Assembly (NCBI RefSeq): GCF_000702885.1
Contig: NZ_JNKO01000008.1
Location: 85,041-149,040 of the forward strand
Length of the DNA: 64,000 nucleotides
Source of the DNA: Oribacterium sp. P6A1
Lineage (GTDB): Bacteria; Bacillota; Clostridia; Lachnospirales; Lachnospiraceae
Direction of reading: 5' to 3'
The notes beneath the pieces were generated by a model. That model was given only the letters and a program-made list of their open reading frames with translations. It did not search any database and had not been told where the DNA came from. Below are positions 240 through 64,000 of this stretch, piece after piece (position 1 is the stretch's first letter; every line of letters begins with the position of its first letter). Made by a program: the position numbers and the translations under genes.

Positions 240-316
240 GCAAAATCCCACATCAAAGATGGTCGATTAAATTTCAGCCTGTGCCGGCACAGCCTCCGCT
301 TTAAGCTCCTATCTGA
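240..316 (-). repeat. Degenerate copy (E) of the post-terminator hairpin family
   Basis: On the minus strand, right after the T-tract of the terminator at 317-354, the sequence reads CAGATAGG, then AAGCG, then a perfect 14-base palindrome centred on GTGCCGGCAC (279-292), then AAATTTAA. These are diverged versions of the entry box, GCG/CAT internal loop and GTGC-nn-GCAC tip seen in the better copies at 26.9 and 63.25 kb. The outer stem is short (TTAA/TTAA), so this copy is less certain. Confidence 0.4.
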
Positions 317-26876: not shown

Positions 26877-26966
26877 AATCGAGCAGGAAAAAATCCTACT
26901 CGATTTCGCGTTGGGTTTCAAATGTCCTCTCGTGCAGGCACAGAGTCCGCTTGAAACCCATATCGC
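26877..26966 (-). repeat. Post-terminator hairpin element, copy A
   Basis: On the minus strand it begins directly after a terminator T-tract with GCGATAT. Then comes a perfect 9-bp stem (GGGTTTCAA with TTGAAACCC, 26913-26921 with 26951-26959), an internal loop GCG opposite CAT, a second stem, and the tip GTGC-CT-GCAC. It ends AACGCG, followed by a second hairpin beginning AATCGAG and ending CTCGATT (26877-26905). The same order is seen in copy B at 63185-63293 with unrelated stem sequences. Confidence 0.65.
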
Positions 26967-27000
26967 AAAAAAAGGAAGCTGCCGCTTTCGCGACAGCTCC
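26967..27000 (-). terminator. Terminator of the carboxypeptidase operon
   Basis: GGAGCTGTCGC/GCGGCAGCTTCC stem with a GAAA loop on the minus strand and seven T residues (26967-26973), 90 bases after the carboxypeptidase stop. Confidence 0.85.
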
Positions 27001-27089
27001 CTTGCTGCTCTTAATTCAAAATATAATGTCTTCGTATCTGATTGTCAATGAAGCCCGATGTCGTAATAAGTTATGTCTGTCATAACACT

Positions 27090-56742: not shown

Positions 56743-56903
56743 CATAAGTCCTACGCATTGCTTCGCATACGCTTTCGCAATGCTACAGAAATCTCGAATT
56801 CGCGCTTTTGCGCTACTTCTCAATTTCTGTTGTCGTGCCAAATGGCGATGAATCCTTACAAGCAAGCTTGACGAATTCATCACCGCTTGGCGCAGGACTT
56901 ATG
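56743..56903 (-). ncRNA. Candidate four-way-junction RNA containing hairpin element C
   Basis: P1 is a 10-bp closing helix CATAAGTCCT/AGGACTTATG (56743-56752 with 56894-56903). Three arms lie inside. Arm a has stem GCCAA/TTGGC with GATGAAT/ATTCATC and the GCG/CAT internal loop of the repeat family (56837-56891). Arm b is ACAGAAAT/ATTTCTGT with inner GCGC-TTTT-GCGC (56785-56830). Arm c is GCATTGC/GCAATGC (56755-56783). It lies right after the secDF terminator and before tgt. The minus-strand sense is inferred from neighbours. Confidence 0.5.
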
Positions 56904-56907
56904 CACT

Positions 56908-56935
56908 AAAAAGACCGACTCAAAAGAGTCGGTCT
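56908..56935 (-). terminator. secDF terminator
   Basis: A perfect 10-bp stem AGACCGACTC (56912-56921 with 56926-56935), a 4-base loop and minus-strand T-run. Confidence 0.9.
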
Positions 56936-59291: not shown

Positions 59292-59408
59292 GAAATTAAT
59301 AGGAACAGTGAATTCCTCCCATGCTTCAAAACAAAAAAATCATTCCTGATTCTCTTATCCTGGATGTACGATTCCACGTTGACCGGATCTCACTTCTGCG
59401 CCTTAACG

Positions 59409-59439
59409 AAAAAAAGTGACCCTCCGGGATCACTTTTTT
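59409..59439. terminator. Terminator of the lspA-like gene
   Basis: AAAAAGTGA/TCACTTTTT stem (59411-59419 with 59430-59438) with an inner CC/GG pair; symmetrical A/T tracts. Confidence 0.85.
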
Positions 59440-63184: not shown

Positions 63185-63293
63185 AATATGACAGGGAAAT
63201 TATTCCCTGTCATATTCCGCGTTGCCCGTCAAATGCTCCATTGGGCTTTTGTGCAAGCACAACGCCCATGGAGCGCTTGACGGGCTTATCGCG
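63185..63293 (-). repeat. Post-terminator hairpin element, copy B (best copy)
   Basis: Minus strand, starting right after the terminator T-tract: CGCGATAA, then stem GCCCGTCAA/TTGACGGGC (63224-63232 with 63277-63285), internal loop GCG opposite CAT, stem CTCCATGGGC with GCCCAATGGAG (63236-63246 with 63264-63273, one bulge), and tip GTGC-TT-GCAC (63251-63260). The 3' end is AACGCG, pairing with the entry CGCG, followed by a second perfect 14-bp hairpin (63185-63198 with 63203-63216). Confidence 0.7.
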
Positions 63294-63318
63294 AAAAAAA
63301 GCAGGACAAAAGTCCTGC
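63294..63318 (-). terminator. rRNA operon terminator
   Basis: GCAGGAC-AAAA-GTCCTGC (63301-63318) followed on the minus strand by seven T residues (63294-63300), just after tRNA-Val. Confidence 0.9.
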
Positions 63319-63328
63319 AAATAAAAAA

Positions 63329-63401
63329 TGGGGCCTACAGGGCTCGAACCTGTGACCCCCTGCTTGTAAGGCAGATGCTCTCCCAGCTGAGCTAAGACCC
63401 C
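63329..63401 (-). tRNA. tRNA-Val (TAC), copy 2
   Basis: Identical in sequence to the copy at 13645-13717, with anticodon TAC. It is the last gene of the rRNA operon before the terminator. Confidence 0.95.
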
Positions 63402-63685
63402 ATTTAAAAACATATTCAACTGAATCCTTGAGGACTCTTTAATAACCGCTCAAAACCACGCGGTTCTTTTGAACAAATATCAAAAGATCTATCGTACCTT
63501 CAAAACTGTACACCACATTTTATAAGTTATTCTCAGTAATCCATCATTAGGTTTCAGTCTGCTCTGTCAGCAGCCTGAAATTTCGCTTTGCGAAACAGCA
63601 TTTCTTCGAAATACTGCCATATCGTTCCGGAGTTTCCTGATGAAAACTCCTCCACTCTCTATCCGATAAACATTTAACCTCATTG
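63402..63685 (-). other. 23S to tRNA-Val spacer
   Basis: About 280 bases without a 5S rRNA. The minus strand shows a run of hairpins: one with a TGAT loop (63630-63651), then TTTCGC/GCGAAA near 63585-63600, and TTTCAG/CTGAAA near 63553-63582. Confidence 0.7.

Positions 63686-64000
<315 letters not shown>

Follow-up and report, generated by a model that had tools for sequence, protein, structure and literature searches.

Robart et al. reportedly found in 2007 that group IIC introns insert after intrinsic terminators. Minimal elements of the IS200/IS605 type carry hairpins near both ends, formed on one strand, and insert 3' of a short target on that same strand. For group IIC introns the target has been specified as the terminator stem-loop together with a T-rich stretch, insertion taking place downstream of it and in one orientation (PMC7161350). 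Short dispersed intergenic hairpins are also known as REPs, GTAG/CGTC palindromes accompanied by RAYT, which occur in clusters and show alternative complementary stem letters as well as G.T pairs (PMC3733652, in the parts describing these palindromes). Clostridiales-1 (RF01699) appears among the candidate structured RNAs of a 2010 list (PMC2864571).

The window analysed here is the whole stretch of DNA of 64 kb. A sequence-only reading of it had described two elements, A and B, which share the same ordered parts on the minus strand: stem 1, an internal loop with GCG opposite CAT, stem 2, a tip, the return CAACGCG and a second hairpin. Both belong to a dispersed repeat of roughly 90 bp, made up of two hairpins (Table 1). 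On inspection of the sequence both are laid out as described, and both fold far better than shuffled sequences: as RNA the two hairpins of B together reach -72.2 kcal/mol (z -10.6) and those of A -50.2 kcal/mol (z -8.5), none of 200 shuffles being as stable in either case. As had been claimed, GGGTTTCAA of A and GCCCGTCAA of B are stems that pair exactly with their own complements, and the lower stem is TGCG/CGCG in A and CGCG/CGCG in B. The bases of the proposed internal loop are present as well: within one long helix, GCG and CAT form first a G.U and last a G-C pair, with a C.A mismatch in between. In the window the pattern CAAGCG...CATTTG occurs twice, in A and B, versus 0.24 expected occurrences, and two or more were reached in 1 of 100 shuffles. 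A scripted search that required AAGCG to face CATTT, flanked by five or more pairs, returned three places only in the window, namely A, B and a further sequence, C.

Table 1. Coordinates of the repeat elements and of adjoining features in the window.
Feature	Position	Strand	Details
Element A hairpin 1, short-stem subtype	26907..26967	-	TGCGATAT ... CAACGCG; model match 79.9 bits
Element A hairpin 2	26877..26906	-	AAATCGAGTAGG...CCTGCTCGATT; right edge is the empty-site junction in two relatives
Intrinsic terminator adjoining A	26967..27003	-	12-bp stem, T7; present without the element in G011 and G015
Element B hairpin 1, long-stem subtype	63218..63293	-	CGCGATAA ... CAACGCG; model match 69.1 bits
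Element B hairpin 2	63185..63217	-	GAATATGACAGGG...CCCTGTCATATT
Intrinsic terminator adjoining B, behind rRNA/tRNA genes	63294..63318	-	GCAGGAC-TTTT-GTCCTGC, T7
tRNA and rRNA genes ahead of the terminator of B	63329-63401 (tRNA), 63683-64000 (rRNA)		Rfam search of the window
Copy C, Clostridiales-1 RNA (RF01699)	56745..56901	-	86.8 bits; related first hairpin
Decayed element remnant	269..315	-	model match 269-301, 17.2 bits, E 0.018; terminator T-run ends at 316
Possible decayed remnant	59335..59408 (about)	-	CGTTAAGGCG...GGTCAACGTGGAATCG, by eye; terminator T-run ends at 59409

In the home genome (3.7 Mb, 95 contigs) CAAGCG...CATTTG is found at 11 places, seven of which are elements as judged by eye; a backward control pattern gave 2. 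A covariance model built from seven home copies (61 positions, 23 pairs) returned 43 matches in the home genome at E<=0.01, a figure which includes the seven training copies and for which 150 of 468 first-look candidates were scored. With stricter filters the number was 42. An unfiltered model scan of the window gave strong scores only for A (79.9 bits) and B (69.1 bits), both training copies, and the possible remnant at about 59335-59408 is absent from the model matches in the window. Neither A nor B was matched by Rfam at gathering thresholds. Further copies in related genomes, whose absence would have spoken against the sequence-only reading, do exist: the model matched in 20 of 60 relatives (congeners, 10 of 16; rest of the family, 8 of 20; rest of the order, 2 of 24). 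Some matches in G005 and G007 share coordinates with RF01699 copies, so that the counts there mix two families. A pattern scan of named genomes with a longer 5' motif detected 10 stretches, seven from Oribacterium and three from genomes named Lachnospiraceae bacterium. We searched 41 home loci (48 matches) and 76 loci from relatives (98 matches), the relatives' copies being a sample drawn among the matches listed. The context set comprises 125 copies, that is the 48 home matches minus three antisense ones and the 98 from relatives minus nine from overlapping loci and nine that were weak, partial or antisense. In a literature search of titles and abstract openings, with the terms used and among the matches listed, no description of the A/B repeat family was detected, and we found no existing name for it.

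Conservation of the structure was assessed with 47 distinct copies of exactly 61 nt, which align gap-free. In this set 91.1% of the cells are paired, and 19 of the 23 pairs show changes on both sides that preserve pairing. Cells changed on both sides amount to 138 versus 45.5 in shuffles, and 0 of 500 shuffles reach any of five measures, a count that is no probability because the 47 rows are related and were selected by a model with the same structure. When the partner is shifted by one to three columns, pairing falls to 23-47%. A structure derived de novo from the same alignment keeps 16 pairs, 13 of them with a both-side change, and leaves out the closing CGCG stem. Variation is lower than in the stems at the AA that precedes the closing stem, at the G.U step and at the tip; the G.U pair of GCG opposite CAT is kept in 42 and an exact GATAA foot in 34 of the 47 copies. 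Three connected proposals of the sequence-only reading are thereby supported: stem changes are compensated across copies, the structure is under selection with loops kept and stems changing, and the compensated stems support an RNA motif or a hairpin DNA element rather than simple duplication.

The pairs also carry information on the folding strand. With the fixed G.U pair excluded, 81 cells hold G.U versus 23 with A.C, and column by column G.U prevails in 17 and A.C in one, with four tied; part of this excess may stem from match selection, because the covariance model somewhat prefers G.U over A.C. The excess identifies the folding strand as the transcript strand. It shows which strand folds and does not separate RNA from single-stranded DNA.

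Copy C had been counted as a member of the same family. It does share the AAGCG/CATTT step, located in its first hairpin, but belongs to RF01699 and is a relative of A and B. A comparison with Rfam, which had been suggested, identified a known family for C alone: at an RF01699 cut-off of 48 bits C scores 86.8 and B 35.1, and A gives no match at E<=1. Since A is without such a match and B lies under the cut-off, we consider A/B and C as relatives and not as one family; judged by sequence, RF01699 is the nearest named family to A/B. None of 20 home loci with copies, A and B included, contains an RF01699 match at the gathering threshold. The tip of Clostridiales-1 is of the GCTTGC type as in the A/B family, and Clostridiales-1 is also dispersed, with some copies likewise behind terminators; C itself starts a few bases past a terminator, the T-run of which has its last T at 56908. 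The differences lie in the remainder of the fold and in the ends. A and B fold into hairpin 1 and one simple hairpin, without hairpins 2-3 of RF01699 and without its three-hairpin junction with outer stem, and unlike A/B copies many of the RF01699 copies inspected have inverted-repeat ends and no abutting terminator. The home genome holds 31 RF01699 matches at E<=0.01, not all of them shown to exceed the cut-off and some possibly belonging to the A/B family.

Some observations concern RF01699 itself. Full copies often start with TGAT... and finish with ...ATCA. Five of them (L070, L072, L091, L093 and L097) are flanked, by eye, by AT-rich direct repeats of 5-6 bp (TAGTA, TTAAAA, TTATGA) in a MITE-like manner; other copies inspected alongside have no such flanking direct repeats. 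A second group (L284, L285, L282, L306 and window 56745-56901) begins with GTGCATAA or GTGTATAA right behind terminators, and L284 has matching inverted ends AGTGCATAAAGCCC/GGGCTTTATGCACT. At L191:4449-4546 there is a 98-bp insertion not present in G011 and G015, which by eye is like one end of an RF01699 copy.

The address of the A/B family on the genome is striking. In 90 of 122 copies with enough flank an intrinsic terminator (6 or more stem pairs, with the T-run no further than 3 nt away) abuts the left end of the element in the same orientation, versus 4-9 of 118-121 when the test was shifted by 30-300 nt or applied to the downstream side on either strand. Among 30 home copies inspected, a T-run lies at the left end or a few bases away from it in 25; of the remainder, L032 has no T-run and four are array units that come later in the array or at a contig end. 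In A the first base of hairpin 1 doubles as the last T of the terminator T-run. The 32 copies that fail the terminator test include 10 later array units, several weak or RF01699-like matches and a few copies (L139, L147) whose flanks look like terminators missed by the detector; good copies without a clear terminator are L046, L067, L156/L168 and L103. We also compared T-run lengths at 252 terminator candidates in the fetched loci. The mode is 7 (28/54) where an element-like start lies behind the candidate and 5 (95/198) at the remaining candidates, a set that includes chance hairpins. The terminators vary in sequence and follow tRNA and rRNA genes in the case of B and L018 and a TPP riboswitch in the case of L035, from which we conclude that the terminator is not part of the element.

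Two of these loci deserve a description of their own. At L035:1355-2810 the TPP riboswitch is followed by the terminator, the element and a 394-codon open frame, so the element is situated in a leader behind an attenuator. At L103:1732-1934 a 63-codon open frame runs into the terminator-less copy, which sits downstream of an element of the IS605 type whose Y1 gene is truncated.

The locus of A was searched in 13 relatives and matched in 9, six of which were aligned. All six are without A. Two of them, G011 and G015, retain the terminator of A and then directly continue with the sequence found after A at home: with a slash for each junction, the site reads TTTTT/GTTATA in G011 and TTTTC/GTTATA in G015 versus T7/GCGATAT...CTCGATT/GTTATA at home. 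G004, G012 and G014 are without A behind their terminator and have more diverged flanks, and G016 has neither the element nor a clear terminator. Regarding a target-site duplication, the position of the join at A is ambiguous by no more than a TT beside the T-run. At L194 the home genome carries one and a half units, and none of the five relatives inspected has the copy. Here G011 has about 26 nt behind the T-run that are missing at home, so not every event was clean.

At other sites the element differs between genomes. Different subtypes are located behind the same terminator in two genomes at L025 (long)/L129 (short) and at L133 (short)/L142 (long), and at L044/L063 the neighbours are common and the subtype behind the same terminator differs. 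L046/L171 have the same neighbours as L044 with the element elsewhere and were therefore not counted as a swap. Some pairs of relatives share the same copy by descent, e.g. L128/L145 and L127/L045. Behind the riboswitch terminator of L035 the home genome carries a member of the A/B family, and G011 and G015 carry hairpins of other sequence (arranged in tandem in G015), apparently from a different hairpin family. Behind the terminator at the L015 locus, G015 carries a dissimilar hairpin that may have decayed. L232 (G015) and L226 (G011) contain another hairpin repeat behind the terminator at the site of a home element; in G015 it reads AGCTACGAGCCAAAGTACCACC... and occurs in tandem.

Copies also form arrays in which whole and 3'-cut units follow one another in register. 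Among 92 first units with sufficient flank, 24 have a GATAA 20-60 nt past hairpin 1; later bins give 4-11 of 91-92. Judged by eye, the same subtype goes on in 17 of the 24 cases, as a whole or a cut unit and in four of them for no more than about 7-11 nt; a remnant of another stem type is present in L045 and L127, and L042, L121, L136, L138 and L157 are chance-like or unclear. The terminator-side unit is top-scoring or tied in 10 of the 11 loci with at least two close model matches, the exception being L066. The home contigs C2, C27 and C41 end inside near-identical units (L023, L026, L030, L034), hence the sizes of arrays there are probably underestimated.

The placement at terminators and the empty sites favour the hairpin-element alternative of the sequence-only reading over a free-standing RNA gene. 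In our opinion the A/B repeat is probably a non-autonomous mobile hairpin directed to terminators; the chemistry of its mobility we propose with low confidence. The target would be a terminator hairpin together with the T-run behind it. An enzyme provided in trans may recognise hairpin 1 by its GATAA foot, the G.U/C.A step and the CUUG-like tip and might join the fixed left end of the element to the T-run, the element being copied to terminators as a folded single strand. Copying could overrun one unit and stop early, which would yield tandem arrays with a cut last unit. If the folded strand is what is recognised, stems would be free to change as long as pairing is kept. Some of the empty or swapped sites could instead go back to gene conversion or to an older element having been lost.

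The main rival, which we consider unlikely, is an RNA structure maintained in place by selection at transcript 3' ends or in leaders behind attenuators, where it might act as a back-up terminator, an end-protector or a protein site. Such a structure agrees with pairing being preserved by compensation across copies, with the G.U excess by which the transcript strand folds, with copies sitting where readthrough RNA would include them, and with the relative RF01699 being filed as RNA. Selection for a downstream hairpin does not, however, need the zero spacer between T-run and left end, and the same site is empty in relatives or occupied by another type. In addition, stem changes between the orthologous copies L155/L169 and L046/L171 appear uncompensated by eye (uncounted).

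We assign a similarly small probability to an origin without a dedicated enzyme, by template switching during replication or by gene conversion: a strand stalled at a T-run would jump to an element-bearing T-run, copy the element and return. Well-placed copies begin after a T-run, which would provide the microhomology, the T-runs before element starts are the ones with the longer mode (7 versus 5), the last units of arrays are cut at varied points and subtypes replace one another at a single site, all as template switching would have it. The process should also use T-runs without a hairpin, though, and the association with terminators would speak against this; both sides of A's empty site are clean, and the process does not call for conservation of the GATAA foot and the tip.

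A more specific variant of the mobile hairpin, in our view rather improbable, involves reverse transcription of the element RNA. The enzyme would run off the 5' end and carry on along the U-tract of a terminated RNA, or else read the hairpin unit again, and the product would be fixed behind the terminator, constituting a new class of mobile element addressed to transcript 3' ends. If this were true, the fixed left end, the fractional tandem arrays and the folding of the transcript strand would follow in one step, and terminators would be a docking site common to several hairpin families. Antisense copying primed by poly(A) is disfavoured, as the G.U excess places the folding strand on the transcript side. 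Finally, independent small-RNA genes located behind terminators by chance, for which the listing of the related Clostridiales-1 as a candidate structured RNA (PMC2864571, as above) could be quoted, are highly improbable and were rejected, because the gap between T-run and element leaves no space for a promoter in abutting copies, and tandem, cut and swapped units are not gene-like.

For the proposed mobile hairpin directed to terminators a mobilising enzyme was looked for in the gene content of the genomes; none was found and the gene content fits no candidate tested. Y1 transposase genes are present in the home genome and in the copy-bearing G004, G012 and G014, also in the copy-less G006, G008, G009 and G013 and in the copy-poor G001, and were not found in the copy-rich G002, G011, G015 and G016 (14-18 matches each; G002 is 87% complete). 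Mobilisation of the RAYT/IS200 kind was rejected on account of this mismatch between Y1 gene content and copy content. The home genome has one intact Y1 gene of the IS605 type, in whose locus no copy was found, and one truncated gene; the L103 copy lies about 240 bp from the latter and does not form a flanking pair.

Reverse-transcriptase genes were surveyed in 21 genomes, with G013-G016 outside this set and the genes of G004 and G008 left untyped. Of eight copy-bearing congeners tested, six have them (home, G002, G004, G007, G011 and G012) and G001 and G005 do not; the copy-less G008 and G009 have them as well. The loci of six reverse-transcriptase genes were checked for copies, and none was detected. 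The genes at L323:1422-2660 (G011) and L324:1080-2300 (G012) encode stand-alone reverse transcriptases with the UG26 defence model as best match (331.6 and 509.7 bits). UG26 enzymes were rejected as partner, given that these gene loci of G011 and G012 hold no copies; a Pfam search of the home genome returned only two reverse-transcriptase genes, both of group II, so UG26 is no consistent partner. These two home genes sit in group II introns matching the D1D4-6 model, with no copy nearby.

If terminators are the preferred landing site, the element can multiply without breaking genes and at the same time reshape 3' ends and attenuators. Very small hairpin repeats would then join a ribozyme retroelement in targeting terminators, and a testable target rule would be at hand. 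Such targeting would also suggest that some families of structured RNA found by covariation, e.g. Clostridiales-1, are related to mobile elements.

Regarding known mobile systems, the A/B family differs from IS200/IS605-type elements in that no partner Y1 gene is established for it. Terminal inverted repeats as in MITEs were not detected either: in none of 125 copies do the 70 nt downstream contain the reverse complement of the foot, TTATCGCG, considering exact matches only. With REPs, as far as they are described in the source cited above, the family has in common the short dispersed intergenic hairpins, the alternative complementary stem letters, the G.T pairs and the clusters. It differs from them by its position directly behind terminators and by having no established transposase. 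An unpaired GTAG or CGTC tag is present in the feet of 0 of the 47 gap-free copies (CGTC lies within the paired stem in 20 of the 47), and no Y1 transposase flanked by the repeats, as in REPs and REPINs, was found in the home genome, nor any Y1 gene in the four copy-rich relatives. With group IIC introns the family shares insertion behind intrinsic terminators, seen in the 90 of 122 copies and in the empty sites. In contrast to these introns the element measures about 90 bp and has neither ribozyme domains nor a maturase ORF, and Rfam group II models had no match in the window or in 20 copy loci. Retro-mobility of the group IIC type by the element itself was rejected, as there is no ribozyme and no ORF and the home group II introns are of another type. 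The A/B family is thus a member of neither group; it resembles group IIC introns in its target and REPs in its copy behaviour.
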